Part shown: positions 9,674 through 36,331 of the stretch, piece by piece
Numbering within the stretch: the first letter of the stretch is position 1
Layout: every line of letters begins with the position of its first letter
From: Acidimicrobiia bacterium
GTDB taxonomy: Bacteria; Actinomycetota; Acidimicrobiia; Spongiisociales; Spongiisociaceae
DNA length: 64,000 nt
NCBI GenBank assembly: GCA_021296345.1
Contig: JAGWAN010000001.1
Coordinates: forward strand, 1 to 64,000
Direction: 5' to 3'
The notes under the pieces: generated by a model
Databases searched by the model: none
What the model was told of the DNA's origin: nothing
What the model saw: only the letters and a program-made list of their open reading frames with translations
Position numbers and translations under genes: made by a program

Positions 9674-10576
9674 TCAGGACTGAAACTCGGGGAAGGGCTG
9701 CTTCCAGTTCTCGTAGATGATCCCGTCCTGAATCTCGGTGGGAATAGTGGGGAGCTTGGTGCCTTCAACGATGTCGTTGATTCCCCGCAATCCGTTTATG
9801 ACGTTGGAAAGAGTGCCGGACGGATAGTCGGAGGCAAGAAGCAGCTTGTGGGTCACGCCGTACTCCATCGCGGTCACCATTGCCTGCCAGTAGCGCCACG
9901 GCCGGTAGTGAACGGCAGAGATGTCGGCGTACATGTTGGGCGTCTTGCGTATCAAGGCGATCACATCCTCCTCCCAGGGGTGGCCGAGGTGAGCGATGAT
10001 CATTCGCAGATCGGGAAATGCCATGGCCACGTCCTCGAGCAGCAGGGGTAGCGCCCAACGGAGCCGGGCATTGGCCGGGAAGGTGGTGCCCTGGTGCCAC
10101 ATGATCGGTATTCCCAGCTCGGAGCATCTCCGGAAGAAGGGCCAGTGACTGCGGTCGGTCGGGTCGAAGTGCTGGTAGGTAGGACCGACCTTCAGCCCGC
10201 TCAGTCCGAGATCGGTAACGCAATGGTCGAGTTGGTCGATCGCGTCGTCATCAGCCGGGTTGACCGACGCCCACCCGATCAGCTTCTCGGGATGCGACGC
10301 GACGTACTCGGCAATCAACTCCTTCGGGACCGAGATCCCGGTCGGTCGGGCGCTCATGCCGAACACCACCACCTTGTCCGCCTGCTGGGCCGCCTCCCAG
10401 TGATCCTGCGGTCGCGAGTCGTAGGAGTGGAGGTCGAGGCGGGCGGCATGTACCTCGCCGCCCGAGTGCTGCAATTTGACGAGCTTCGAGGCGAGGGCCT
10501 CGCGGGCGGTCTCCTCGCTGATGTGATCCGGGTACCACATTATGTGGCTATGGACATCGACGATCATTGGCCGCAT
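9674..10576 (-). CDS. Amidohydrolase-2 family protein (ACMSD/lactonase-like)
   Basis: 300 residues with the metal-site motifs DVHSH (HxH), MWHQGTTF, IAHLGHPW and LLASDYPS in barrel order. The family contains lactonases for L-fuconolactone-type products and decarboxylases; the Gfo/Idh dehydrogenase four bases upstream favours lactone hydrolysis. A close paralogue is at 14977 (shared stretches GLK-GP-YQHFDPT and HQGTTF). ATG 10576 was taken as start; ATG 10567 (MIVDVH) is equally possible. Confidence 0.8.
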   Translation of the reverse strand: MRPMIVDVHSHIMWYPDHISEETAREALASKLVKLQHSGGEVHAARLDLHSYDSRPQDHWEAAQQADKVVVFGMSARPTGISVPKELIAEYVASHPEKLIGWASVNPADDDAIDQLDHCVTDLGLSGLKVGPTYQHFDPTDRSHWPFFRRCSELGIPIMWHQGTTFPANARLRWALPLLLEDVAMAFPDLRMIIAHLGHPWEEDVIALIRKTPNMYADISAVHYRPWRYWQAMVTAMEYGVTHKLLLASDYPSGTLSNVINGLRGINDIVEGTKLPTIPTEIQDGIIYENWKQPFPEFQS

Positions 10577-14976: not shown

Positions 14977-15819
14977 ATGGTCGTCGACTGCCACACTCAC
15001 GTCGGGGCATTGGATCATTTCAGCCCCAGCTTCGTCGCCGAGATGGTGCGAGCCTGGGGTGAGATGAGTTGGCCTGGTGACGACCTTGCCGCCCACCAGT
15101 CCGCTATGTCCGGGTTGGACAGGGCGATCGTCGTTGCCATGGACGCTCCCGCTGTGGGAATGGTCGTACCCAACGAATACGTCAGCTCCTACGTCGCCAC
15201 CGATCCCGAGAGGCTGATCGGTTTCGCCAGCGTTGACCCCAACCGGCCTGACGCGCTTGACCGGTTGACGCTGGCGGTGGAGGACCTTGGGCTACGAGGG
15301 TTGAAGCTGGGGCCCATCTACCAGCATTTCGATCCTACCTCGCCACCCGCCATCGAGTTGTTCCGGCACGCCGAGCATCTCTCCCTGCCCGTCCTGTGCC
15401 ACCAGGGCACCACGTTCGTCTCCGACGCCCCGCTCAGATGGGCGAGGCCGTTCCTGATCGACGACGTGGCCCGCGCCTGCCCCGATCTGAAGCTGTTCAT
15501 CGCCCATCTCGGGCATCCATGGTGTGAGGAGACGATGGCGGTGATCCGCAAGCACCCCAACCTGTATGCCGACGTTTCGGCACTTCACACGCGACCCGTG
15601 CAGCTGTACATGGCCTTGCGTTCTGCCATCGAGTACCGGGTTACGGACAAGTTGCTGTTCGGCAGCGACTTCCCGTTCGCCACCGCCGCCGAGACCGCAG
15701 AGGCATTACGGTCCGTCAACGACGCGGTCGGAACGGGCTGGCCTCCGATACCTGCCGAGGTCATCGAGGGGATCATCCATCGCCCGGCGTTACAGATCCT
15801 CGGGCTCGAAGAAAAGTGA
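14977..15819 (+). CDS. Amidohydrolase-2 family protein (ACMSD/lactonase-like)
   Basis: 280 residues with DCHTH (HxH), LCHQGTTF, IAHLGHPW and LFGSDFPF, the complete metal set of the family. It is a paralogue of the protein at 9674; the two share the central GLK-GP-YQHFDPT block and most of the C-terminal half. In the operon it precedes two enolase-superfamily genes, which suits a lactonase feeding an acid dehydratase. ATG 14977 lies 37 bases after the M20-like stop. Confidence 0.82.
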   Translation: MVVDCHTHVGALDHFSPSFVAEMVRAWGEMSWPGDDLAAHQSAMSGLDRAIVVAMDAPAVGMVVPNEYVSSYVATDPERLIGFASVDPNRPDALDRLTLAVEDLGLRGLKLGPIYQHFDPTSPPAIELFRHAEHLSLPVLCHQGTTFVSDAPLRWARPFLIDDVARACPDLKLFIAHLGHPWCEETMAVIRKHPNLYADVSALHTRPVQLYMALRSAIEYRVTDKLLFGSDFPFATAAETAEALRSVNDAVGTGWPPIPAEVIEGIIHRPALQILGLEEK

Positions 15820-22150: not shown

Positions 22151-23277
22151 GCGACGTATCAAGATACACCGAACATCCTGCTATCCGCCTCGACGGGGTG
22201 ACCAAGCGGTTCGGCGCGGTTCTGGCCGTGGACGACGTGACCCTCAAGATCGAGGAGGGGGAGTTCTTTTCGTTGCTCGGCCCGAGTGGATGTGGCAAGA
22301 CCACAACCCTGCGGATGCTGGCCGGTTTCGAGACCCCCGACGAGGGCTCGGTATACCTGCGAGGCGAGGATGTGACGCTGGTCCAGCCCAACAAGCGGGC
22401 AACCAACATGGTCTTCCAGAACTACGAGTTGTTCCCCCATATGACGGTGTTCAACAACGTGGCATACGGCCTCAAGCTCAAGAAGGTTCCCAAGCGCGAG
22501 ATCACGGAACGGGTCAACGACATGCTCGAGGTCGTCGGTGTGGGCGGCCTCGGTAAGCGCGCCGCCGACCAGCTTTCGGGTGGTCAGCAGCAGCGGGTGG
22601 CCCTGGCCAGAGCCCTGATCAACCGTCCCGCCGTGCTCCTGCTGGACGAACCGCTCAGCGCCCTCGACGTGAAACTGCGAAAGCGTATGCAGTTGGAACT
22701 GAAGTCGATCCAGGAAACTCTCGGCACCACCTTCGTCTACGTAACCCACGACCAGGAAGAAGCTCTGCTGATGTCCGACCGGGTCGGAATCATGAACGAG
22801 GGAGTGCTATTGCAAGTTGCTGCGCCCCGCACCATCTACGAGCAGCCGGCCGACGACTTCGTTGCGGACTTCGTCGGGACTTTGAACGAACTCACCATCC
22901 GTATCGAGAAGGTCGAAGGAGAACGGGGCCTGGTTGCCTCCGGAGACCAGGAGAGGATCTGGATGGACCTGCCCGGCGGCGGGACCGTCGGGGACATCGT
23001 CCGGCTTGCGGTCCGCCCCGAAGCGCTACAACTCACGCCGCGCCGTGAATGGGATGGAAGCCCCGACCTGAGCCACACCAGCGGCACGGTCTCCGATGTG
23101 ATCTACCTGGGCCCCTTCACACAATTCCTCGTCAATAGCGAACGGCTCGGGAGGATGCTCAGCCAACGGGTGAGCGATGCCGAGGCAGCGGCGATCCGAC
23201 CCGGCATGCAAGTGATCGTCAGCTGGCACCCCGACACGGCATTCATGCTGGCCGGGCCTGCGGCTGACACTCGATGA
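22147..23277 (+). CDS. ABC transporter ATP-binding protein (PotA-like)
   Basis: 376 residues. Walker A GPSGCGKTT, signature LSGGQQQR, Walker B LLLDEPLSALD and switch VTHDQEEAL are all present. A C-terminal TOBE domain from about residue 280 is typical of PotA/FbpC ATPases and often regulatory. It is translationally coupled to its neighbours on both sides by four-base overlaps (ATGA). Confidence 0.92.
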   Translation: MSDVSRYTEHPAIRLDGVTKRFGAVLAVDDVTLKIEEGEFFSLLGPSGCGKTTTLRMLAGFETPDEGSVYLRGEDVTLVQPNKRATNMVFQNYELFPHMTVFNNVAYGLKLKKVPKREITERVNDMLEVVGVGGLGKRAADQLSGGQQQRVALARALINRPAVLLLDEPLSALDVKLRKRMQLELKSIQETLGTTFVYVTHDQEEALLMSDRVGIMNEGVLLQVAAPRTIYEQPADDFVADFVGTLNELTIRIEKVEGERGLVASGDQERIWMDLPGGGTVGDIVRLAVRPEALQLTPRREWDGSPDLSHTSGTVSDVIYLGPFTQFLVNSERLGRMLSQRVSDAEAAAIRPGMQVIVSWHPDTAFMLAGPAADTR

Positions 23278-24200
23278 CGGGTGATGGCAGCCCTATCCCC
23301 TCCATCCGCCGCGACCTAGTCGGCTACAGCTACACGTCCGGGCCTGCTCCCCGCCTGACCGTGGAGGCGGGCACGACTGTGCGGTTCGAAACCTGGGACG
23401 CGCGGGCCGGCGCCCTTCTCGACCGCGAAGCCGGAAGGCCGTTCGAACTCCCACGACCCACACCTGGACGAGGCAATCCGCTGACCGGCCCCCTGGCCAT
23501 AAGGGGCGCCGAACCCGGCGATGCGCTCCTGGTGACGATCAACGACATAGCGTGCATCTCCCCTGGATGGTGCGGGGGTCACGCGCATGTGGGACCGCTA
23601 CCCGGAGGCCGCATTCCTCGCCCCCTTGGACGGGTATGTCCCCACGACGGCGAGTCGGTCCACTTCAACCGAGACGTGCTTCTGCCGCTGTCGCCGATGA
23701 TCGGCTGCATCGGGACCGCGGTGCCGGACGACCCCCCGAACGCGGGCGTCCCCGGGAGGCACGGCGGCAATCTGGACCATCCCGTCGTCGCGGTGGGGGC
23801 AGTGGTCCACATCCCGGTCTTCGTCAACGGAGGACTGGTGTACATAGGAGATGTTCACGCTGCGCAGGGCGACGGCGAGCTTTCCGGAATCGGCCTCGAG
23901 ATCCCCGCCGACGTAACCGTGACGGTGGACATCGACCATGGTCGGCAGCTGCAGTGGCCGTGGGTCGTCAACCAGGATCGGGTGATCGTGATGACCTCTG
24001 CCATCGAGTTCGCGGATGCTAGGCAGGAAGCGGTCGAGCAGGTAGTGCGAGTCCTCGAGACCCAACTCGGCTACGAGCCGGCGGATGCTCTCGCCCTCAT
24101 CTCGGTGGCCGGAGACTTGCGCATCGGCCAAGCGTTCGGCGGCATGGAGATGACGCTGAGACTCGAGATGCCGAGATCACTCGGCATAGTGCCTGGATAG
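23274..24200 (+). CDS. Acetamidase/formamidase family protein
   Basis: 308 residues, coupled to the ATPase by an ATGA overlap. The sequence matches the FmdA/AmdA family: IRGAEPGDALLVTI, CHPHD-like RVCPHDGESVHF, PLSPMIGCIGTAV and the GDVHAAQGDGE block with conserved His, Asp and Glu. These beta-rich zinc hydrolases release ammonia from small amides. Its place as the last gene of the importer operon suggests the imported compound, or an early product of it, is an amide. It is cytoplasmic with no signal peptide. Confidence 0.88.
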   Translation: MTGDGSPIPSIRRDLVGYSYTSGPAPRLTVEAGTTVRFETWDARAGALLDREAGRPFELPRPTPGRGNPLTGPLAIRGAEPGDALLVTINDIACISPGWCGGHAHVGPLPGGRIPRPLGRVCPHDGESVHFNRDVLLPLSPMIGCIGTAVPDDPPNAGVPGRHGGNLDHPVVAVGAVVHIPVFVNGGLVYIGDVHAAQGDGELSGIGLEIPADVTVTVDIDHGRQLQWPWVVNQDRVIVMTSAIEFADARQEAVEQVVRVLETQLGYEPADALALISVAGDLRIGQAFGGMEMTLRLEMPRSLGIVPG

Positions 24201-25017: not shown

Positions 25018-26049
25018 TCACCCCGGCACGCACTGCGCTACGACGGCGATGTGTTGGCCCTGCTGCACCTGCGCATGCCAGGCGGCGGCGATCAGGTAAC
25101 CGTCCACGGCGGCGCGCACCCGCCAGGGATCCTCGTCAATACGGTGAAAGTCGTGCAGCAGACCCACGACCTCGCCCTTCACGACCTTCGATCCGCATTC
25201 GAGGAGCGGTTCGTAGTGTCCGGGCCACGGGGCCAAGACGTAGCAGGCCGGGTCGACCGCCTCGACGATGCGCTGCGTTCCCGCTGCGTGATGGGCTATG
25301 GGCGCCACATCAAGGTTCATCTGACCGGAGAGCATGGCGGCGGCGATCACACCGTGGCGCGCGTGGCGAACACCATCGGGACTCAGTGCACCTCCCCAGC
25401 CGAACTCGCCTCCCACAGATATCTTGCCCCTCCGTTCGGCGTCGCTGGTGAGCAGCCCGGGAGTCGCGTCCTGATAGGTCAGGATGAAGGGCACGCCGAA
25501 CCATTGTGCCATCTCGAGCATCGCTGCAGCTTGCCGATCATCGGGGACACGATGGAAGCTCGTGAGAGGCGCGAAGCGGGCCACGTCGCCACCGGAATGG
25601 AGGTCGATCACGACGTGGACATGAGGCCAGATGCTCGTTCGCACGAAGTCGGCTATGCGGTGGCTTATCCCGGATAGCGCCTCGTCGCGACCGGCCTCCT
25701 TCACAAAGGCTCTGTTGAGGTTGACACCGTCCGCCCCGACGCTCTCCCTCCGGCCGGCGCGAAAGGCTGGAGCGCTGATGACAGGGACCAGCACGACCCT
25801 TCCACTCACGGTGGCTTTGTCGATGTCCCGGAGAAGATGCTTGAGGGCCACCGGCCCCTCATACTCATCGCCATGGGTAGATCCGAAGGCCACTAAGCCA
25901 TGGCCTTCCCGGGCGTCGGGGCCCACCCACACCGTGAGCGGTATCAGCCAGTCACTCCAGATCGAGTCGTGCGGAAGGCTCACCCAGTAGTCACGGCGGC
26001 CCGGAGACACGACGTCCAGGTCATCCGGTGTGACTATGCGTCGAGACAT
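25018..26049 (-). CDS. AstE/AspA-family deacylase
   Basis: 343 residues. Motifs STHGDEYEGP (zinc His and Glu), GVNLNR, and VIDLHSGG (second zinc His) are those of succinylglutamate desuccinylase/aspartoacylase enzymes, which remove an acyl group from an amino acid. DoeB-type ectoine-degradation enzymes belong here too. ATG 26049 follows TAGGAG at four bases. It is the last gene of the minus-strand operon from 30232, implying that a pathway intermediate carries an N-acyl group. Confidence 0.85.
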   Translation of the reverse strand: MSRRIVTPDDLDVVSPGRRDYWVSLPHDSIWSDWLIPLTVWVGPDAREGHGLVAFGSTHGDEYEGPVALKHLLRDIDKATVSGRVVLVPVISAPAFRAGRRESVGADGVNLNRAFVKEAGRDEALSGISHRIADFVRTSIWPHVHVVIDLHSGGDVARFAPLTSFHRVPDDRQAAAMLEMAQWFGVPFILTYQDATPGLLTSDAERRGKISVGGEFGWGGALSPDGVRHARHGVIAAAMLSGQMNLDVAPIAHHAAGTQRIVEAVDPACYVLAPWPGHYEPLLECGSKVVKGEVVGLLHDFHRIDEDPWRVRAAVDGYLIAAAWHAQVQQGQHIAVVAQCVPG

Positions 26050-26056
26050 GCATCTC

Positions 26057-27226
26057 CTAGTTGACACGGTGGTGCTCCACGAACTCGACGTCCACGTCCA
26101 CGCCGAGCCCCGGCGTTTCCGGCACCGGCAGGGTCCCGTCGTCGTTGAGAGACATCGTCCCGCTGGTCACACCACGGCTCAGCCGGCTCTGGGCAGCATT
26201 GAACTCGACGTAGCGTGCCCGGGCAAGAGTCGCCATGTAATGAGTGCTGTAGCCATGCAGAAGGTCGGAGATCCACGAGTGCGTGATCACATCGACATCG
26301 TGCTCGGCTGCCGACTCGGCGATGAGCAGCGCAACGGTCAATCCTCCGCAGCGCGTAAGGTCGGGCTGGAGGATGTCGACGCAGCCGCTGTCGAGATAGC
26401 GCCGGAAGTCCCAGATCGTCGTGAGCTGCTCGCCGGCTGCCAGGGGCACCGGGCTCCGCTCCCGGACGTAGGCGTAGTCCCCGACGTACTCGGGATGGAT
26501 GAAGTCCTCCACCCATACCGGGTTGTAGGGAGCAACCCGGTGGCACAACTCCAGGTTCTCCCGCCGGGTCCGGAACCGGTACCCGTCTGACCTGCCGATG
26601 CCATACCATCCGGGGTCGATCATGAGATCCCTGTCGGGTCCCAATGCCTCCCGGATTGCAGAGAGAATCTCGGTGTCGCGTCCGGCGTCCTCGCCGAATG
26701 GGCCCCAGCCGAACTTCGCCGCCCGGTAGCCGGCATCGACGAAGGCGCGTGCGGCTCGGTGGTTGTCTTCGGGGTCGTCCCAAAAGAGGCTCGACGCGTA
26801 AGCCGGCAGCGTGTCTTGCTTGCGACCACCGAGCATCTCATACAGCGGCACGGAGGCGGCCTGGGCCTTGATGGACCATAGGCAGTTGTCGATGGCCGAC
26901 ATGCAGTGCAGCGCGATTCCCCTGCGGCCGTAGTAGGCAGTCCCCACGAACATCTTGTTCCAGAGCCGCTCGGTGTCCGACGGGTCCTCATCCATGAGAA
27001 CGTCTCTCAGGGTGTGGAAGCCGATCGGGCCCATGCTCGTACCTTGCACGATCGAAGGCGCGGCCGTGGTGAGCGTCTCCACCTCTGACCACCCCACGAG
27101 GCCCTGGTCGGTCTCGACCCTGATCAGGGCCAGCCAGTCACCCTGGTCGATCGCATCGGCTTCGTTCCGGCGCGTGCCGTAGGTTTCGTCACCTCGCAGC
27201 AGAATGCACTCAACATCGGTGATGCG
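26057..27226 (-). CDS. Enolase-superfamily dehydratase, mandelate-racemase type
   Basis: 389 residues from GTG 27226 (VRITDVECILLRG); an in-frame GTG at 27304 would add 26 residues of no domain character. Barrel motifs are AAKFGWGPFGED (Lys), MIDPGW (Asp), WVEDF (Glu), AAGEQ (Glu) and the His-Asp dyad QPDLTRCGG with ITHSW, so this is a complete MR-type active site, unlike the MLE-type pair upstream. Likely role is dehydration of a sugar acid. DapA-like and MBL-fold genes lie upstream in the operon. Confidence 0.85.
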   Translation of the reverse strand, partial: RITDVECILLRGDETYGTRRNEADAIDQGDWLALIRVETDQGLVGWSEVETLTTAAPSIVQGTSMGPIGFHTLRDVLMDEDPSDTERLWNKMFVGTAYYGRRGIALHCMSAIDNCLWSIKAQAASVPLYEMLGGRKQDTLPAYASSLFWDDPEDNHRAARAFVDAGYRAAKFGWGPFGEDAGRDTEILSAIREALGPDRDLMIDPGWYGIGRSDGYRFRTRRENLELCHRVAPYNPVWVEDFIHPEYVGDYAYVRERSPVPLAAGEQLTTIWDFRRYLDSGCVDILQPDLTRCGGLTVALLIAESAAEHDVDVITHSWISDLLHGYSTHYMATLARARYVEFNAAQSRLSRGVTSGTMSLNDDGTLPVPETPGLGVDVDVEFVEHHRVN

Positions 27227-27358
27227 CACCGTCCGCCACGCCCCTTCAGATTGCCCGCTGGTGGAGGTGACGATCCGCCAGGTGCCACACCGGTCGAAGG
27301 CCACGTTTCGGAGTCGTCGCCACTTCCCCTTGACGGTCTGCGTCCCGGATCACTGCCA

Positions 27359-28294
27359 TTAGCCGACCGCTGATCGGAGTACGTCGAAGAGGCGGTCCAC
27401 CTCTGCGGTCGTCTCCCGGTCCAGCCGGTAACCAACCGGGCCCCTGGCGCGGCCGGCGGTGAAAACACCCTGCCTCACGAGGAGGTGCTTCTCGACGGCG
27501 ATGAACCCGTCGAGACCGGTCTGTATCGAGACGAGCGCGGCCAAAGGACCGTTGATGGCGTTGATCCGCTCCTCGTCGCCCGCCTCCAGAGAGTCCCACA
27601 GGGCAACGATCGCCCAGCACACCTCCGCCCCGGGCATGGTCCCGACGATCCCACGTTTGTAGCTGTCGACAAGGGCAATACCCCCGGAACCTTCGAACAC
27701 GCGGGCCGCGCCGCCCGTGGCCTCGCGTAGTTCGGTGAGTCTGGGTCCGATCGGGACGGCCTCCGGTTTGAATAGCACCCGTCCCTCGTACTCGTCGAGC
27801 AACCGGGCTTGGAGCCCGATGGACATGGGCCGACCCACGTAGCCGCTGGCGTCCTGAATGACCAGAGGCACTTCGGTGGCATCGAGCAATGCTCGGTAGT
27901 AGTCGGCGAGCTGGTCCTCGAGGCATGGCACCGTGGTCGGCGGGATTGCCATGAGGGCGGACGCCCCGATGCTCTGGGCATGCACGGCATGGTCGACAGC
28001 CACTTTCGTGCTTTCCGCCCCGACGCTGACAATCACCGGTCCGTGAGCGAGGCCTATCTCGCATGCCGCCTCGGCGAGAAGACGGCGTTCTTCGCCCGAC
28101 AGCCTCAGGGTCTCAGACACCATCGCCATTACGATGCCGTCGATCCCGTGGCCGTACATCCATCGGATCTCCTTCTCCAACACCTCCCGGTCGATCGAGA
28201 AGTCTTCACGGAAGGGTGTCTGGAACACGGGGAATACCCCGGACAGGGCCTCCGATCCCGGTGATCGGCGGGGGGAGGCAGCCCGGTCGCTCAA
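27359..28294 (-). CDS. DapA/DHDPS-family aldolase or dehydratase
   Basis: 311 residues, TIM barrel. FPVFQTPF at the start, IIVSVGAES-like VIVSVGAES, and the Schiff-base lysine in VLFKPEA (about residue 175) mark the family. The usual Tyr strand is replaced by VIQDASGYVG. Together with the dehydratase gene downstream it suggests cleavage or further dehydration of a 2-keto-3-deoxy acid rather than lysine biosynthesis. GTG or ATG starts are close together; the frame beginning at 28294 was kept. Confidence 0.85.
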   Translation of the reverse strand: MSDRAASPRRSPGSEALSGVFPVFQTPFREDFSIDREVLEKEIRWMYGHGIDGIVMAMVSETLRLSGEERRLLAEAACEIGLAHGPVIVSVGAESTKVAVDHAVHAQSIGASALMAIPPTTVPCLEDQLADYYRALLDATEVPLVIQDASGYVGRPMSIGLQARLLDEYEGRVLFKPEAVPIGPRLTELREATGGAARVFEGSGGIALVDSYKRGIVGTMPGAEVCWAIVALWDSLEAGDEERINAINGPLAALVSIQTGLDGFIAVEKHLLVRQGVFTAGRARGPVGYRLDRETTAEVDRLFDVLRSAVG

Positions 28295-28343: not shown

Positions 28344-29129
28344 TCAAGGCGCGATCACTCCGTCCGGATAGCGATCGAACACCTTCACGTCGTGAATCGG
28401 CACGATGTGCTGAGCAGTGGCCCGTACCCTCGCGTAGCAGTCCAGAGCCTCGTACATGTTCTCGCACAGGCCCAGCATCTCGCCGTCTTCCACGTTCTCG
28501 TAGAAGAAGTACGAGTCCGAGATGGCTACCACGCCGGCCGCAGTGTCGACCTCGACCACGATCGACTCGCGATGGTGAGCGCCCGACCACCACGTACGCA
28601 GTCCGGGCGCGACCTCGTCCTCGTCCTCCAGCAGGCGAACCCTATCCCAACTGTCCGTGACGAGGTCGACCAGGGTGTCCTTCGGTATCGACCTCCAACG
28701 GTCGTCGTGAGGGTGGTCATGCGTGGTGTGGAAGTGAACCCAGCCCCGCTTGGCGATGCATACCTGCGCGGTCCTGAAAAGGTGGAGGGTGCCGGTCGTA
28801 TACAACTCCAAGGGTGTGAGCAGGATGTGGGTGATGTCATCAGGAGTGAGGCCGACGGTCTCCAGCGCGCCGGTCATGTAGTGCTCCGGCTGTCGCTTCA
28901 GGTCACCCTTCGGAGCATCGTGGAGGTACCGCATCGACGGCCAGCCCTCCTCGACCATCGTGGTTTCGTCAGGTGGCGACGCGTTCACCAGGGCGGTGAT
29001 CCCGCCTCCTCGTATCAGGGTCACGTTGAACCCCAGCGGGTACATCTCGTCCCACCGGCTCATCCAGAAGACCTCGGGCCCTGCGATCAACGACTCGCCC
29101 ACGCTCAGGACTCTTACCGAGTATTCCAT
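28344..29129 (-). CDS. Metallo-beta-lactamase-fold protein with degenerate metal site
   Basis: 261 residues. The fold is visible in FNVTLIRGGGITALVNA, the helix after it, ITHILLTPLELYTTGTLHLF, and IVVEVDTAAGVVAISDSYFFYEN. The zinc motif HxHxDH expected after ILLT is absent; the same place reads TPLELYTTG. Late Asp (SDS) and His (PIHD) positions remain. It may hydrolyse a lactone in the operon with fewer or different metals, or be non-catalytic. The sequence resembles lactonase-like members (for example AHL-lactonase relatives). Confidence 0.7.
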   Translation of the reverse strand: MEYSVRVLSVGESLIAGPEVFWMSRWDEMYPLGFNVTLIRGGGITALVNASPPDETTMVEEGWPSMRYLHDAPKGDLKRQPEHYMTGALETVGLTPDDITHILLTPLELYTTGTLHLFRTAQVCIAKRGWVHFHTTHDHPHDDRWRSIPKDTLVDLVTDSWDRVRLLEDEDEVAPGLRTWWSGAHHRESIVVEVDTAAGVVAISDSYFFYENVEDGEMLGLCENMYEALDCYARVRATAQHIVPIHDVKVFDRYPDGVIAP

Positions 29130-29230: not shown

Positions 29231-30232
29231 TCAGCCGTCGAACTCGGCTATGTCGACAGGGCGTCCCTCCTCGATCGACCTGTCCATCGCGAGCGCTGCC
29301 ACGAGAGCTGCGCGGGCGTCGGCGAGTGCCAACGGCCATGGCCGGCCGTCGCGCACGCGGCCCAGGAAGAAGGCGTCCTCCGAAGGCAAGGCGCCGTAGG
29401 GGACGCCGTTCGGGTAGGAGTAGTAACCGGAATGGATGTGCTCGAGGCCGTCCGCGCTGAATACCACCGCCGGCGAATCGCGGGTCTCCACATAGGCGCT
29501 CCCCCGCGTTCCGAAGACAGCCAGACGGTGGTCGCTGCGAAGTCCGGAATCGAAGGGCAGGATCCAGTTGTGGTCGAGAGCACCGACAGCCCCCGAGGCG
29601 AACCTCACGGTTGCCACCGCCGCATCCGGCCCGGGCCCGACAACCCGCTGTTGGGCAGCCTCCGCATACACCCTCTCTATATCGCCTACGAGCCATCTCA
29701 TCACGTCGAGGTCGTGAATCGCCATCTCCTGGGGAACGGTCGTACGTCCCGAGATGATCCTGCCCTCGTAGTCGGGCGCATTCCATCGAGCCGACACATG
29801 TACGACCTCGCCGAGCTTCCCGTCTGCCACCGCTTGGTGGACCGCTACGTAGTTGGGATCGAAGCGCAGCGTGTGGCCTATGACCAGGCTCCCGGTGGTC
29901 GACTCGTGAAGCTCCATCATCCGGTCGGCGTCGCCGAGCGAAGAGGCGAACGGCTTCTCGCAGAAGACATGCAACCCGCGGATCATCCCTGCCTCGACCA
30001 CCGGTAGATGAACCTGTTGGGGTGTGCAAACCCAGAGCGCGTCGAGACCGGCCGTGTCGAGGGCTTCATCGAGGTCCACCGTGAATCGGGTCCCCGCAGG
30101 TACCCCGGAAGCCGCTGCCGGATCCGTATCGCAGATCACCGCGAGATCGGCCAAAGGGTGCGCAGCCAGAATCCTGGCGTGTTCACGACCGATCATCCCG
30201 TGACCGGCAAGCGCGCATCGCACTGGCTGCAT
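29231..30232 (-). CDS. Gfo/Idh/MocA-family oxidoreductase
   Basis: 333 residues from ATG 30232 (MQPVRCALAGHGMIG). Rossmann glycine motif AGHGMIG, FCEKPFASS (EKP) and AIHDLDVMRWL in the substrate domain. It is a paralogue of the protein at 10581, with matching FDPNYVA and SGRTT regions. As first gene of the operon 30232-25018 it probably carries out the first oxidation of a sugar or sugar-like substrate. Confidence 0.87.
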   Translation of the reverse strand: MQPVRCALAGHGMIGREHARILAAHPLADLAVICDTDPAAASGVPAGTRFTVDLDEALDTAGLDALWVCTPQQVHLPVVEAGMIRGLHVFCEKPFASSLGDADRMMELHESTTGSLVIGHTLRFDPNYVAVHQAVADGKLGEVVHVSARWNAPDYEGRIISGRTTVPQEMAIHDLDVMRWLVGDIERVYAEAAQQRVVGPGPDAAVATVRFASGAVGALDHNWILPFDSGLRSDHRLAVFGTRGSAYVETRDSPAVVFSADGLEHIHSGYYSYPNGVPYGALPSEDAFFLGRVRDGRPWPLALADARAALVAALAMDRSIEEGRPVDIAEFDG

Positions 30233-30279
30233 TGCCGTCCCGTCGTCTTTGAAACACGGGCGCGGTAACAACGGTTTGG

Positions 30280-30548: not shown

Positions 30549-31547
30549 CTACGGATCGAGGCCCAGGAGTTTCTCGGGATTGGTCCTGACCATCTTGCGG
30601 ATTTCCTCGACCGGTAGGCCCAGGTCCAGAAGGCAGGCGATGAACTCACGCATGCCTTCGACCGGCGCCGGCAATGTGTAGCCACCGAAGTCTGTCGCCA
30701 GGATGCAGTGATCGGTTCCCACTTGCCGGATCTGTTCGGCGGCCTTCCTGATCCCTCCGCTCGCCTCGCCCGTCATCTCCTCGTCCGCCGCGTATTCCCG
30801 CTCGACGTAGTAGTGGGTCTTGGGGATCGACGTGGTGTGCGTGTAAGCGCCCAGGGTGTACTCGATGAAGGCGCCCCTCCGGGCCATGTGCCGGAGCTGG
30901 TCTGTCGAGGCAACCTGGGTGACGGCGGTCGCTACCAGCACCTTTTCGATCCCGTACTCGTTGGCGAGTTCGACCAGGCGGATGGCCTCATCGGGCGAGA
31001 CGTGGCCGGTGTTCAGAAAGACATGGGAATGGTCCGCGATCACGCTCAGGATCTCGTCCAACTCAGCACCCACCGGCTCATCCACGGGGATTTGGATGGC
31101 CCTATCCACCTCCTCCCTCCTGAACTCCGGGTACAGGTCCTGCAGGGGTGTGAACTTGCCGTCCACGATCCGACCCTCCCTGGAGGCCTGGTAGTAGGTG
31201 GAATGAGCACCGAAGCTGATGAACCTGGCGCCATCGCCGTACCTGATCGCCGTCTTGACGGCCCGAGGGTTGAGGCCGCCGTATGCGGTATTGAGGATCA
31301 GGCCACCGTAGACCGTGAAGTCGGGCACGGCCCGGTTGACGATCCAGGCGATTCCGTTCGTCATCTGGAAGACATCCATCAGCACGATCGCCCGCATCCC
31401 GGCGTCGCGCGCCTCTATGGCCGCCTCGATAGGGTCCAGCCGTCTCGGGCTGCTGGGCAGGTGCGGTGTGGCGTGAACGTGGATGTCAATGGCGCCTTCG
31501 AGAAGCTGGCGGGACAACTCGAAGGAACGGTTGTCGGGTAATAGCAC
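30549..31547 (-). CDS. DUF6282-like amidohydrolase
   Basis: 332 residues. AIDIHVHATPHLP holds the HxH metal pair, with later SFGAHSTYY, FLNTGHVSP and ILATDFGG supplying the other ligands expected of an amidohydrolase-superfamily barrel. GTG 31547 follows directly after the TGA of the globin gene with no bases between, so the two are translationally coupled. The C-terminal third is duplicated as a dead fragment at 6471. The substrate is unknown. Confidence 0.75.
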   Translation of the reverse strand: MLLPDNRSFELSRQLLEGAIDIHVHATPHLPSSPRRLDPIEAAIEARDAGMRAIVLMDVFQMTNGIAWIVNRAVPDFTVYGGLILNTAYGGLNPRAVKTAIRYGDGARFISFGAHSTYYQASREGRIVDGKFTPLQDLYPEFRREEVDRAIQIPVDEPVGAELDEILSVIADHSHVFLNTGHVSPDEAIRLVELANEYGIEKVLVATAVTQVASTDQLRHMARRGAFIEYTLGAYTHTTSIPKTHYYVEREYAADEEMTGEASGGIRKAAEQIRQVGTDHCILATDFGGYTLPAPVEGMREFIACLLDLGLPVEEIRKMVRTNPEKLLGLDP

Positions 31548-32051
31548 TCAGCAGTCCTGTCCGGATGGCGCGCCGGGCTGGTTGATCAGGTGGGTGGCGG
31601 CGTTGTCGAAGTGGTCGAACATGGCTGCCCGGATCTCGGCAGGAAGCGGTCGGCCGGTGCCGTCGGCGAGGGTTGCCGCATCGAGAGAAGCTGTCATGTG
31701 TGCCATCCACGCGTCGCGCTCGGCCCGGCCGATGGCGAAGTGCATGTGGCGCATCCGCAGGCGGGGATGGCCCCGCTCCTCGCTGTAGCGCGGCGGCCCG
31801 CCCCAGTACTGGACCAGGAAGCCGGCCAGCCGCTCCCTGGATCTCCGCAGGTCCCTCGGGTACATGGGCCTCAGCAGCGGGTCTCTCTCCACAGCGTCGT
31901 AGAAGCGGTCGACGAGATCATCGAAGAATCCCTGGCCGCCCACCGCCTTGAAAACGGTGGGAGGAGCATTCACCGCCTCTCGCAGCGACCCGCGCAGGAT
32001 CACCTGCGCCGGCTGACCCCCGTCACCGACCACCTTGTCCGGCTCGCTCAC
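31548..32051 (-). CDS. glbO: Group II truncated haemoglobin
   Basis: 167 residues. The globin core begins near residue 33 (VFKAVGGQGFFDDLVDRFYD); FLVQYWGGPPRYSEERGHPRLRM and the proximal-histidine region RHMHFAIG match group II (TrHbO) proteins. They bind O2, NO or peroxide through haem. An N-terminal 30-residue extension is present. It is followed immediately by the amidohydrolase gene and is preceded by the SLC13 transporter gene after 83 bases. Confidence 0.88.
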   Translation of the reverse strand: MSEPDKVVGDGGQPAQVILRGSLREAVNAPPTVFKAVGGQGFFDDLVDRFYDAVERDPLLRPMYPRDLRRSRERLAGFLVQYWGGPPRYSEERGHPRLRMRHMHFAIGRAERDAWMAHMTASLDAATLADGTGRPLPAEIRAAMFDHFDNAATHLINQPGAPSGQDC

Positions 32052-32134: not shown

Positions 32135-34462
32135 TCAGATGGGGAAGAAGACCGGTACTAGGGCGACCACGATGCCCAGGACGACAACGGTCAGGGGGGT
32201 ACCGACCCGGGCATAGTCGACGGCACGGTAGCCCCCGGCGCCCATGACCAGGAGGTTGGCCTTGTGGCTGAAGGGGGTCATGAACGCGGCCGACGCGGCC
32301 AGGCTTACCCCCATCATGGCCGCGTAGGGGTTCATACCCAGCTGAGCAGCCGTTTCGAGGGCGACCGGCGCCAGCAGAACTACCGCGGGGGCGCCGTCAA
32401 GAGCCTGGCTGAGAAGGCTGGCCAGAACCACCAGCGCGATGAGGATGGCCAGGTGGCCCATCGGTCCCAACCAGTCCGTCACCCTGCTGACCAGGAGCAA
32501 CGCCGCGCCGGTGCTCTCCATGGCGATCCCAACCGGCAGGACCGCCGCCACCAAGAAGATGGTGCGCCACTCGATGGCCCGGTACGCCTCCTCCATGGTG
32601 ACGGTGCCGAACAGCAGCACCAGGCTCGCTGCGGTGAAGGCGGCCACATGGATGGGCTGGATGCCCAGCACCACCATCGCGACCATCAGCAACAACGCTC
32701 CCAGCGCGATCGGGGCCTTATGGGGTCTGCGAGGCTGCATACCCGCCGGTGAAAGCACCAGGAAGTTGGCGTCGGAACCGAGCAGCCGGATCCGATCCCA
32801 GGGACCCTGCACCAGCAACCCATCGCCGAAACGGAAGGCCAGATCAGCCAGATCCTCGTAGATGGAGCGGCCATCCCTCCAGACCGCCAGCAACTGGAGA
32901 CCGTAACGATCCCGGAACTGCAGCTCGCGGGAGGTCTTGCCCTCGACCGCCGAGCGAGGCGCCAGGGCCACCTCTACGATGCCGAAGTTCTCCGACTCGA
33001 GATCCCCCTCATTCACCCGGGAATCCACCTCGACGTCGCCCAGCCGGACCAAGCGCTCGAACCGGGCCGGCTCGCACGCCACCAGCAGGCCATCGCCGGC
33101 CTCGAGAACATCGTCGGGACGCACGTCGAGACGGGTGATGTCATCGCGAATGATCCCTCCGACCGTGACGCCCGCCAGCTCGCTCAGCCGGCTCGATCCC
33201 ACCGTCGAGCCCGCCAGCGAAGAGCCTTCCGGGACCCGGAGCACGGAGAGATGGCCCTCGAAGGCCCGCATCGCCGCCAACCCCAGGTTCTTCACCAGGA
33301 AGTTCGGGTCGGGTTGCATCTCCAGCAGCTGGGAGCGGGGCCCGATAGCGATGACGTGATCACCGGCGCGGATGGTGCGGGTAGCCAGGTCCTCCCGCAA
33401 GACCTCCCCGTCCCGCTCCACCCCTACGATCACCGCCTGGTAACGGTCCCTGAAGCGCGCCTCGCGAGGGCTCTTGCCTGCCAGGCCGGACGAGGCGGGA
33501 ACCTCGAACCTGATGGCCGTGAAGCCTCGCATGGGCCTCGGGAGCTGGCGGGTCGAGGTAGGCCGGAGCTCCACATCCCCGACCCGCAACAGGTCCTCGA
33601 GGTGCGACAGACTGCCCTCCACGAGAAGAACGTCACCGCCCCTCAGGAGGGTGTCGGCCGCCGGAGAGAGGTGCTTGGCCCCCCGGTGTATCGACACCAC
33701 CTGGATCCCCAAGGCCCCGGACAGGTTGGCGTCGGACAGGGTGACGCCATCCATAGCGGACGGCTCGGGAATCCGGATCGTGAACAGCCGCTCCTCGAGT
33801 TGGTAGATATGGGTGAGCTCTTCGGCTTCCGACTCGGCGGGACCGGCCTGGCGGCTGGGAAGGAGCCGCTTGCCGACCGTGATCATGTACAGGATCCCGG
33901 CGGCGAGGAGTACCAACCCGATGGGTGTGAAGTCGAACAGACCGAACGGGGTCATGTCCCGTTCGGCGATTATGGTGGCGGCAACGATGTTGGGCGGGGT
34001 ACCCACCATGGTCGTGGTGCCGCCCAGGATCGACCCGAACGCGAGGGGCATCATCAGGCGGGAGGCCGCTAGCCCCGCCCTCCGGGCGATTCCCGCCACA
34101 GCCGGCATCAGGACAGCGGTGGCGGCGATGTTGTTCATGAAGGCCGAGAGGATGCCCGACACCAGCATGAGGGTGATGATCAGCGGGATCTCCTTGCTGC
34201 CGACCAGGGTATAGACCTTGGACGCCACCGTGTCGGCTACGCCCGTGTAGAGGAGGGCGGCGCTGATGATGAAGATGGCCAGCATGGTGATCACGGCCGG
34301 CGAGGCGAAGCCGCTGAAAGCCTCCGTAGGCCCGACGTACCCTCCCAGGATCAGTACCGCCAGCCCCAAGAACGCAGTCAGATCCACGGGCAGCTTGGCG
34401 GTCAGGAACAGGTAGGCCATCACCGCCAGCAGCAGGATCAGGAATCCGATCTGCCAGGTCAA
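32135..34462 (-). CDS. SLC13/DASS-type transporter with four RCK_C modules
   Basis: 775 residues. Six or so membrane segments at the N-terminus (to about residue 200) and again at the C-terminus (from about 580) enclose a soluble centre. The signature FMNNIAATAVLMP and the second-half SQALDGAPAVVLLAP are those of the divalent-anion symporter family. Four RCK_C (TrkA-C)-like repeats follow each other at about residues 205-295, 310-395, 405-485 and 495-575; the neighbour at 34565 has two. Transport of a di- or tricarboxylate, sulfate or another anion is the family expectation. Confidence 0.88.
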   Translation of the reverse strand: MTWQIGFLILLLAVMAYLFLTAKLPVDLTAFLGLAVLILGGYVGPTEAFSGFASPAVITMLAIFIISAALLYTGVADTVASKVYTLVGSKEIPLIITLMLVSGILSAFMNNIAATAVLMPAVAGIARRAGLAASRLMMPLAFGSILGGTTTMVGTPPNIVAATIIAERDMTPFGLFDFTPIGLVLLAAGILYMITVGKRLLPSRQAGPAESEAEELTHIYQLEERLFTIRIPEPSAMDGVTLSDANLSGALGIQVVSIHRGAKHLSPAADTLLRGGDVLLVEGSLSHLEDLLRVGDVELRPTSTRQLPRPMRGFTAIRFEVPASSGLAGKSPREARFRDRYQAVIVGVERDGEVLREDLATRTIRAGDHVIAIGPRSQLLEMQPDPNFLVKNLGLAAMRAFEGHLSVLRVPEGSSLAGSTVGSSRLSELAGVTVGGIIRDDITRLDVRPDDVLEAGDGLLVACEPARFERLVRLGDVEVDSRVNEGDLESENFGIVEVALAPRSAVEGKTSRELQFRDRYGLQLLAVWRDGRSIYEDLADLAFRFGDGLLVQGPWDRIRLLGSDANFLVLSPAGMQPRRPHKAPIALGALLLMVAMVVLGIQPIHVAAFTAASLVLLFGTVTMEEAYRAIEWRTIFLVAAVLPVGIAMESTGAALLLVSRVTDWLGPMGHLAILIALVVLASLLSQALDGAPAVVLLAPVALETAAQLGMNPYAAMMGVSLAASAAFMTPFSHKANLLVMGAGGYRAVDYARVGTPLTVVVLGIVVALVPVFFPI

Positions 34463-34564
34463 GGCGCAGCTCCCGCGGCAGGGGTAGCCGGGACAGCGGA
34501 CCTGGAAGAGAAGTACTCCATCGTTCCGCCCCCGGTGTTTCCTGCGCTCCGGTTCACCGTCTGG

Positions 34565-36331
34565 TCAGAACGACCAGAGACGGGGGATGAAGATCACCGA
34601 CAGGCCCCAGAAGATGAGGCTGAGGGGCACACCGGTACGCAGGAAGTCCGTGTACTTGTAGCCACCCGCGTTGTAGATCATCGTGTTGGTCTGGTAACCC
34701 ACCGGCGTGGAGAAACCGGTCGAGGCGGCGAAGGTGATCGCCATCAGGAAGGGCCGCGGGTCGACGCCGATCTGCTCCGCGGTGGAGATGGCTATGGGCG
34801 CGAGGAGCACGGCGGCCGCCGCGTTGCTCATCGTGTCGGTCATCACCGAGGTCATCAGGTAGATGACCGCGAGCACGGCCACCGGCCCCATGTCGCCTAC
34901 CACACCTACCGCCCGTTCCGCTATGAAACCGGCCGCGCCGCTCGTCTGCATGGCTATTCCGAGCGGGAGGATTCCGGCTAGAAGGAAGATGACCTGCCAG
35001 TTGATGGCCTGATACGCCTCATCCAGCCTCAGCACGCGGGTCAGCAACAAGGCCAAGCAGCCGAGCAATGCCGTTACGAGAATCGGGAAGACTTCGAAAG
35101 CCGCCAGCCCGACGACGGCAACCAGGATCGCTATCACCAGAGGGGCCCGGTGCCGCAGGGCCGTCCCCGGGACCTCGTCGAGGACGATGAAGTCGCTGTT
35201 GCGCCGCAGCGCTCTGATCTCCGCCTCGTGTGCCTGGACCAGGATCACGTCGCCGAGGCTGAGGGTGACGGAACTGAGCTGGTCGTGAATCGTCTCGCCC
35301 CTGCGCTGCATCGCCAGTACCAGCGACTTGTAGCGGTTCCGGAAGTCCAGTTCCTTGAGCGTATGGCCGATGAGCTCGGACCCCGGAGCGACCAGGGCCT
35401 GCACCAAGCGCAGGTCCTCGGTCTGCAGCGTCTCGTCCCGCAGTTTGAAGTCGACATTGAGTTCCAAGCCCATGGAATCGCGCAGGCGTATCAGCTCGTT
35501 GATCTCACCGCGCACGAGGAGCACCTGATCCGGTTCGAGAACCTGGCGGAGCGGCGCCCATCCTGCATCCCCTATGTGCAGAACGCGCAGCACCGTGACG
35601 TCGTGTTCCTCGCCGAGGCGGCTGTCGCGCACGGTCTGGCCGACCAGCGGCGAGTTCTTCCTCACCCGCATCTCGGTGACATACTCGCCCAGGTTGTAGG
35701 TGCTGGCGAGTTCGCTCACCTTGCGCTCGGGAAGCAACCAACGCCCAAACACCAGGAAGAAGGTGACTCCGGCCACGAAGAGGATCAGGCCCATCCGGCT
35801 GAACTCGAACATGCTGAACGACCCGTACCCGGCCTGCTCGGAGATGGAGCTGACCAGCAGGTTGGTCGAAGTACCGATCAGCGTGCATACACCCCCGAAC
35901 TGCGAGGCGTAGGAGAGCGGGATGAGCAGCTTGGAGGCGGAGATCCTGCGCCGGTTGGCGAGGATCGTAACGAGCGGGATGAAGACGGCCACCGCAGCCG
36001 TGTTGTTGACGAACGCCGACATCACCGTGATCGTGGCCATCACCACCACCAGCGCGGTGTAGTGGTCCTTGCCGAAACGCACCATGACCCGGCCTACCGC
36101 AGCCGTGGCGCCGGTCTTCTGAAGGCCCGCACTCAGGATGAACATGGCAGCCACCGTGAGGGTCGCCGGATTGCTGAATCCGGAGAACCCCTCCTCTGGA
36201 GTGACCAGACCCAGGCCGAGCAGGGCGCCCAGACCGAGCAATGCCACCATATCCAGCGGGTACTTCTCGGAAACGAACAGGGCGACCGTTCCGACGAGAA
36301 TGGCAAGTACCAGAATCGCGTCCAGCGACAT
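34565..36331 (-). CDS. SLC13/DASS-type transporter with two RCK_C modules
   Basis: 588 residues with the family's split membrane domain: N-terminal segments with FVNNTAAVAVFIPLV and C-terminal segments with DTMSNAAAAVLLAP. Two RCK_C-like modules lie between (about residues 215-290 and 300-380; for example VRKNSPLVGQTV and VAPGSELIGHTL). It is in tandem with the transporter at 32135, 102 bases apart, both on the minus strand. It is divergent from the isomerase-like gene at 36535. Confidence 0.9.
   Translation of the reverse strand: MSLDAILVLAILVGTVALFVSEKYPLDMVALLGLGALLGLGLVTPEEGFSGFSNPATLTVAAMFILSAGLQKTGATAAVGRVMVRFGKDHYTALVVVMATITVMSAFVNNTAAVAVFIPLVTILANRRRISASKLLIPLSYASQFGGVCTLIGTSTNLLVSSISEQAGYGSFSMFEFSRMGLILFVAGVTFFLVFGRWLLPERKVSELASTYNLGEYVTEMRVRKNSPLVGQTVRDSRLGEEHDVTVLRVLHIGDAGWAPLRQVLEPDQVLLVRGEINELIRLRDSMGLELNVDFKLRDETLQTEDLRLVQALVAPGSELIGHTLKELDFRNRYKSLVLAMQRRGETIHDQLSSVTLSLGDVILVQAHEAEIRALRRNSDFIVLDEVPGTALRHRAPLVIAILVAVVGLAAFEVFPILVTALLGCLALLLTRVLRLDEAYQAINWQVIFLLAGILPLGIAMQTSGAAGFIAERAVGVVGDMGPVAVLAVIYLMTSVMTDTMSNAAAAVLLAPIAISTAEQIGVDPRPFLMAITFAASTGFSTPVGYQTNTMIYNAGGYKYTDFLRTGVPLSLIFWGLSVIFIPRLWSF

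Follow-up and report, generated by a model that had tools for sequence, protein, structure and literature searches.

The known N-acyl-homoserine lactonases (AHL lactonases) carry the HxHxDH motif and a dimetal center, and the metal motif of 4-pyridoxolactonase is canonical as well. According to a passage in PMC7614891, CPSF100, a protein with a metallo-beta-lactamase (MBL) domain, has poorly conserved zinc ligands and is an inactive pseudonuclease. A title cited in PMC13406643 places L-fucono-1,5-lactonase (COG3618), a sugar lactonase, in the amidohydrolase superfamily. In the portion of the open-license PMC literature reached by our search, there was no description of a metal-free MBL lactonase or of the family reported here. 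This family came to light in a 64,000-nucleotide stretch of DNA from an Acidimicrobiia bacterium (assembly GCA_021296345.1, contig JAGWAN010000001.1, positions 1 to 64,000), hereinafter the window, where a minus-strand open reading frame (28344-29129) encodes a 261-amino-acid protein containing HILLTPLELYTTGTLHLF. On the basis of the translation, the predicted fold and its placement in a tree clade, we propose that this is an aldonolactonase, and the clade as a whole is a genuine variant of the AHL-lactonase-type MBL fold, widespread and well conserved, in which the metal site is replaced.

The window protein had no Pfam match at E<=1, be it to Lactamase_B (PF00753), to PF08450 (SMP-30/gluconolactonase) or to PF04909 (the COG3618 amidohydrolase lactonase family). 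Its NCBIfam matches are weak, all of them to quorum-quenching lactonases and 4-pyridoxolactonase; with the AHL lactonase equivalogs AiiA, AttM and AhlS, it scores 13-22 bits against cut-offs of 375-475. AttM is weakly matched by 51 of 52 clade members (best E-value 1.5e-07), and 28 of the 52 match Lactamase_B at E<=1, with the best E-value at 8.6e-08, so that some clade members may pass the gathering cut-off. In searches of PDB sequences, phmmer matched the window protein to 8x78 at 1.4e-07, and a profile of 52 sequences yielded 19 matches at E<=0.01, of which the best 16 are lactonase-type MBL proteins. The structure was predicted from the 52-sequence alignment (model m4a4db2d9d9ab; pLDDT 91.3, pTM 0.91), and an earlier model from 9 sequences (pLDDT 65.8) was set aside. 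Comparison by Foldseek and VIA-align found 8x78 to be the solved structure nearest to the model (Z 29.5, 2.0 A over 242 residues), with 4-pyridoxolactonase at Z 26.9 for 3aj3 (range 26.6-26.9 for 3aj3/4keq) and AiiA at Z about 26. As judged from this model, the window protein has the alpha-beta-beta-alpha MBL fold, like the AHL lactonases.

In the alignment with 8x78, which itself carries HxHxDH, the corresponding segment of the window protein reads TPLELYTTG (residues 105-113; 28791..28817, minus strand), H185 aligns with the third His of the metal site, D205 with its Asp ligand and H246 with its last His, all of them metal-binding positions. The window protein thus has other residues at four of the seven MBL ligand positions (P106, E108, Y110 and T111) and keeps the ligand at three (H185, D205 and H246). 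We counted the residues in these columns for 60 unique clade members, including a broken copy (L081), and for 24 canonical relatives. Position 106 is Pro in all 60 clade members and His in all 24 canonical relatives; position 108 is Gln in 52, Glu in 7 and Val in 1, compared with 23 His and 1 Asp; position 110 is invariably Tyr in the clade and Asp in the canonical set; and position 111 is Ala (30), Thr (20) or Ser (10), compared with 24 His. The motif of the clade therefore takes the form TP[LFIV][QEV]xY[ATS], with Ser in place of Thr twice, and HxHxDH is kept in none of the 60 members, whereas the distal His and Asp are kept in all 60. The former belongs to the stretch H185 H186 R187 E188 S189 (28563..28577, minus strand), where the third metal His (60/60 and 24/24) is followed by a clade-specific His-Arg: position 186 is His in all 60 members but Thr (18), Ser (3), Ala (2) or Val (1) in the canonical relatives, and position 187 is Arg in all 60 but Pro in 14 of the 24. 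The former metal Asp, D205 (28515..28517, minus strand), is Asp throughout the clade and in 20 canonical relatives, with Gly in 4. At the last metal His position, H246 (28392..28394, minus strand), the clade has 52 Tyr, 7 His and 1 Cys against 24 His, and the seven sequences that keep the His are the window's own family. N49 (28983..28985, minus strand) is Asn in 60/60 clade members compared with Asp in 24/24 canonical relatives, E223 is invariant in the clade with no Glu among the 22 canonical residues listed, and position 247 is Asp in 57 clade members and Glu in 3. Altogether, N49, P106, Y110, H185, H186, R187, S189, D205, E223 and E227 are common to all 60 unique members, and identity within the clade falls as low as 30%; the invariance of the polar residues down to this level argues for a working site.

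TPLELYTTG is found in all six other orthologues detected in the window's family (90-94% identity). A local mutation or sequencing error was rejected because the motif is replaced in all six of these and in 60/60 clade members. A pseudogene was rejected for the window as well, given the lack of an internal stop in 7/7 same-family genomes carrying the gene and the low dN/dS, which is 0.045-0.071 across six pairs within the family; elsewhere, the ratio is 0.079 for L083/L085 and 0.254 for L047/L048 (outside the window's family), with one pair saturated. A single-sequence search identified no paralogue in the window's own genome at E<=10. An earlier note on this DNA had proposed an MBL fold in which HxHxDH is missing and TPLELYTTG stands instead, and had suggested structure prediction and comparison with lactonases as a check; the fold agrees with the predicted model and its nearest matches, AHL lactonases and 4-pyridoxolactonase, and the replaced motif with the translation and the 8x78 alignment. 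Its remark that a later Asp and His remain is correct, but across the clade the last His is kept in only 7/60, and TPLELY, the conservation of which it asked about, was seen only in the window's own family, the wider clade having the looser form given above. Orthologues with the canonical metal motif, which the note would have taken as a sign of a merely local mutation, did not turn up among the 60 unique clade members.

Metal-free action is favored because the first-shell HxHxDH ligands are gone in all members, and we lean toward the view that the protein is metal-free. H185 and D205 remain, so that some metal could still bind. It seems unlikely, nevertheless, that the protein is a lactonase that still depends on metal, with a single ion on H185, D205 and new ligands, such as H186, E223, D247 or Y110. 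The invariance of H185, H186, D205 and E223, along with the prevalence of Asp at position 247 (57 Asp and 3 Glu of 60), would suit such a site, and variant MBL metal motifs do exist, the structural matches including Cronobacter 6dqh, which is titled with a HARLDQ motif; but 60/60 members lack the first two His (P106 and Gln, Glu or Val at 108), the last His is Tyr in 52/60, and D49 is Asn in 60/60.

The gene is present in 7 of the 15 genomes searched from the window's own family (G000-G014). A scan of genome_contigs with the patterns [AFP]GP[EQ][VLI]FWM and T[WF]W[SC]G[AC]HH, biased toward the clade because one pattern contains the clade's own HH, produced 52 loci, all without HxHxDH. These are filed under Actinomycetota, Bacillota, Acidobacteriota, Burkholderiales, Chloroflexi and two archaeal genomes, although the taxonomic label of single loci may be wrong because many are MAGs. 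In particular, the label of one locus filed under a Bifidobacterium breve MAG (L055) is doubtful because its gene copy and cluster order almost exactly match those of the Actinobacteria MAGs L056-L058. Two scans of viral_contigs yielded no relatives. When 154 genomes of the class that includes the Sulfobacillus genome were searched with a profile, 27 matches in 23 genomes exceeded 280 bits, with the next match at 152 bits; the motif is replaced in all 23 of these strong matches that were fetched, and among the 7 weaker matches fetched, six are canonical (L126-L131) and one (L132) could not be aligned. One Bacillota MAG (G773, the L072 genome) carries two strong matches in tandem (C80:107234-108007 and 108115-108852). 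The copy broken by an internal stop codon, L081 (identical with L121), comes from a Bacillota MAG and adjoins a GH78-cluster gene.

In a maximum-likelihood tree of 89 rows (69 substituted and 20 canonical), replacement of the motif needs one change, and support for the clade is 100/99, with several long branches flagged. The nearest sister groups, L009-L013 and then L126/L127, carry HxHxDH. The genes of L009-L013 lie directly between SDR and MR_MLE genes in 5/5 cases, and those of L126/L127 lie beside MR_MLE- and SDR-like ORFs in 2/2, whereas no such neighbors were found within a 1.5 kb flank of the more distant canonical genes (L014, L015, L016, L020 and L030; 0/5). Of the four L009-L013 loci available in longer stretches, three contain sugar ABC transport genes and two contain a DapA gene; a RhaM-like gene is present in two of these stretches and, by the near-flank view, at a third sister locus. 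L009-L013 share the GPE-F signature with the substituted clade but, like L126/L127 and unlike that clade, keep HxHxDH, GGHTPx, D and SHDP. The occurrence of canonical sisters in the same slot implies that the genomic role outlasted the metal site; most simply, this operon slot was already occupied by a metal-dependent lactonase, the active site of which was then rebuilt in place in one lineage.

The pathway context is clearest in a Sulfobacillus benefaciens MAG (L074), where the cluster consists, in this order, of genes for GH78 alpha-L-rhamnosidase, the substituted protein, MDR, FAH, SDR, L-rhamnonate dehydratase, and LutB-like and LUD-domain proteins. The dehydratase scores 626 bits with the L-rhamnonate dehydratase model (cut-off 393); the SDR has L-rhamnose 1-dehydrogenase as its best match (346 bits, below the cut-off of 400) and the FAH protein has 2,4-didehydro-3-deoxy-L-rhamnonate hydrolase (228 bits, below the cut-off of 500), and for the MDR, there was no match to a rhamnose-specific model. 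An L-KDR dehydrogenase of the MDR type has been characterized in Sulfobacillus thermosulfidooxidans, as stated in a part of PMC5674754. The set of MDR, FAH, SDR and MR_MLE recurs in five loci (L074, L083, L084, L085 and L093). By homology, these five Sulfobacillus-type L-rhamnose operons fit the diketo-hydrolase route, with a candidate for each step except lactone opening.

In a wider census of neighbors, by crude ORF picking within 6 kb, at 47 loci left after ten were dropped, with some close relatives kept, an MR_MLE or a dehydrogenase gene (SDR, MDR or Gfo/Idh) was present at 40 loci. Individually, MR_MLE was found at 29, SDR at 30, MDR at 17, FAH at 8, Gfo/Idh at 8 and DapA at 5, and MR_MLE together with SDR or Gfo/Idh at 26; none of these six families was found at 7 of the 47. 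Among the 154 genomes, L-rhamnonate dehydratase was detected at E<=1e-100 in 26 (25 over the cut-off, G899 below it), including 23/23 strong carriers of the substituted gene (Fisher p 1.8e-24, with shared ancestry ignored). Both genes are on one contig in 21 of the 23, 0.8-7.6 kb apart, and in a 22nd (G778), they are split by a contig end, the contig starting inside the dehydratase and continuing with SDR, FAH, MDR and the substituted gene. Of the dehydratase-only genomes, G839, G871 and G899, with contigs of 7.8, 12.3 and 3.7 kb, respectively, the contig ends at the dehydratase in G839 and G899 and at the SDR in G871, so that true absence of the substituted gene there cannot be concluded.

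Very likely, then, the substituted protein is an enzyme of non-phosphorylative sugar catabolism. The genes usually lie beside a sugar-acid step that needs lactone opening, which suggests a lactonase, maybe a metal-independent one, and we consider the lactonase role probable. Taken as a whole, the reading that we narrowly favor makes the protein an aldonolactonase acting in non-phosphorylative sugar pathways, with its metal site replaced by a new conserved site. Sugar lactones can also open without an enzyme. The protein might act in the same pathway but catalyze another reaction, isomerization of the lactone ring (1,5 to 1,4) or mutarotation of the sugar, given that a site without metal need not hydrolyze and that the neighbors suit any step near sugar, lactone and acid; we regard this as rather improbable because L083 (39 bits, below the cut-off) and the sister locus L042 (Pfam rhaM) have separate RhaM-like mutarotase genes, and the canonical sister that occupies the same slot is of the lactonase type.

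In the window, the substituted gene is part of a tight minus-strand run. Upstream of it is its partner, a Gfo/Idh/MocA dehydrogenase (29231..30271), the proposed sugar 1-dehydrogenase, and downstream are a DHDPS/DapA-family lyase (27359..28294), the proposed keto-deoxy-acid aldolase; an enolase-superfamily (MR_MLE) sugar-acid dehydratase (26057..27304; best match PRK14017, 164.5 bits, cut-off 311); and, last, an AstE/AspA (DoeB-like) deacylase (25018..26067). The window's genome (G000) had no L-rhamnonate dehydratase at E<=1e-100, which, together with an unassigned MR_MLE protein and the Gfo/Idh dehydrogenase, makes a sugar other than rhamnose likely for the window; in its phylum, this enzyme was found at that threshold in 0/396 sampled genomes, so that no comparison is possible there for a displacement test. 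Of the 6 other same-family relatives, 5 have as their next gene a member of an Amidohydro_2 cluster, not of DapA/MR_MLE (Pfam-checked in L035). These are the loci L034-L038; L035 then continues with a gene for a type I phosphodiesterase, in an operon unlike that of the window. As to the surroundings, a gene for an acetamidase/formamidase-family protein (23274-24200, plus strand) directly follows one for a polyamine-type ABC transporter ATPase. On the minus strand, two adjacent long ORFs (32135-36331; 775 and 588 amino acids) look like membrane transporters by eye; they lie beyond a bacterial-globin gene (31548-32051).

These domain matches agree with the sugar-acid operon of dehydrogenase, DapA-like protein, dehydratase and deacylase that the earlier note had described. 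Its further statement that other lactonase candidates are absent from the operon needs qualification: the lactonase is likely the missing step, but just upstream, on the same strand, lies a competing candidate, a DUF6282 amidohydrolase-like gene (30549..31547; PF19799, 160 bits), the product of which scores 19.1 bits with Amidohydro_2, under the cut-off of 26.4. In the window only, this could be the lactonase, with the substituted MBL gene in a side role, and the amidohydrolase superfamily does include a sugar lactonase, the COG3618 L-fucono-1,5-lactonase (title cited in PMC13406643); we deem this doubtful because tblastn with amidohydrolase queries detected none near the gene in Sulfobacillus-type loci. 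In this search, which ran amidohydrolase and SGL queries against 57 loci and is weak for SGL, with one true query (L096) and another (L095) probably in the wrong frame, the only loci with amidohydrolase-like stretches were those of the window's family. Amidohydro_2 matches also occur elsewhere in the window (9818-10558 and 14983-15807) and in 10 of the 11 carrier genomes searched, in G774 about 21 kb away on the same contig, whereas SGL (SMP-30) genes are encoded somewhere in 23 of the 31 genomes searched, including G000, and were not found in G772, G774, G777, G779, G780, G781, G359 and G449. A pseudoenzyme, either a lactone-binding sensor or a partner subunit of the dehydrogenase, has a precedent in CPSF100, an MBL-domain inactive pseudonuclease (PMC7614891, in part), but appears quite improbable, with the pocket motif polar and invariant, no other lactonase recognized and no canonical MBL partner seen in the Sulfobacillus-type operons listed.

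For the aldonolactonase that we favor, we infer lactonase activity, the absence of metal and a role for each residue as follows. The family would descend from zinc-type, AHL-lactonase-like MBL enzymes already serving the lactone step. A sugar 1-dehydrogenase (SDR, or Gfo/Idh in the window) would make a 1,4- or 1,5-lactone that would bind at the former metal location. The positions of D205 and H185 are close together across the metal site in MBL structures, and these former ligands could form an Asp-His proton-relay pair activating water, while H186, R187 and Y110 would hold and polarize the lactone and E223 may assist; the acid product would then pass to the MR_MLE dehydratase. In its most specific form, as a lineage of MBL-fold sugar lactonases that dropped the dimetal center, rebuilt hydrolysis with a metal-free His-His-Arg/Asp/Tyr site and kept the operon slot, the proposal is tentative, and we put it somewhat short of an even chance.

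MBL-fold enzymes are commonly recognized by the metal motif, which the substituted clade lacks although it retains the fold and the likely pathway role. If the protein is catalytic, it would fill the missing lactonase step in the Sulfobacillus-type rhamnose operons and give a name to a window protein that is matched by no Pfam or NCBIfam model above the cut-off, and the canonical sister in the same slot would make a direct pair for studying the loss of metal with the job retained. If the proposal is true, this would be a natural example of one reaction that passed, on a single fold, from catalysis with metal to catalysis without it.

Among the known systems, the AHL lactonases (AiiA, AiiB, GcL and 8x78 of P. 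poae) are the best profile matches of the substituted family and share the fold over the whole length (Z about 26-29.5, 16-21% identity), but, compared with them, the window protein has substitutions at 4/7 ligand positions and 52/60 clade members have them at 5/7, and the gene context of the family is sugar-acid catabolism. 4-Pyridoxolactonase (3aj3, 4keq; 13-14% identity) is likewise an MBL-fold lactonase from a catabolic pathway. As described in part of PMC7614891, the CPSF100/Cft2 pseudonuclease resembles the family in having an MBL fold with the zinc ligands lost, but it is part of an RNA-processing complex, as a subunit whose partner is active, whereas the substituted family belongs to metabolic operons. 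Conversely, the L-rhamnono-gamma-lactonase and L-fucono-1,5-lactonase of COG3618 have the same reaction and pathway position as those proposed here, but the fucono-enzyme, according to a title cited in PMC13406643, belongs to the amidohydrolase superfamily, with a fold unrelated to that of the substituted MBL family.
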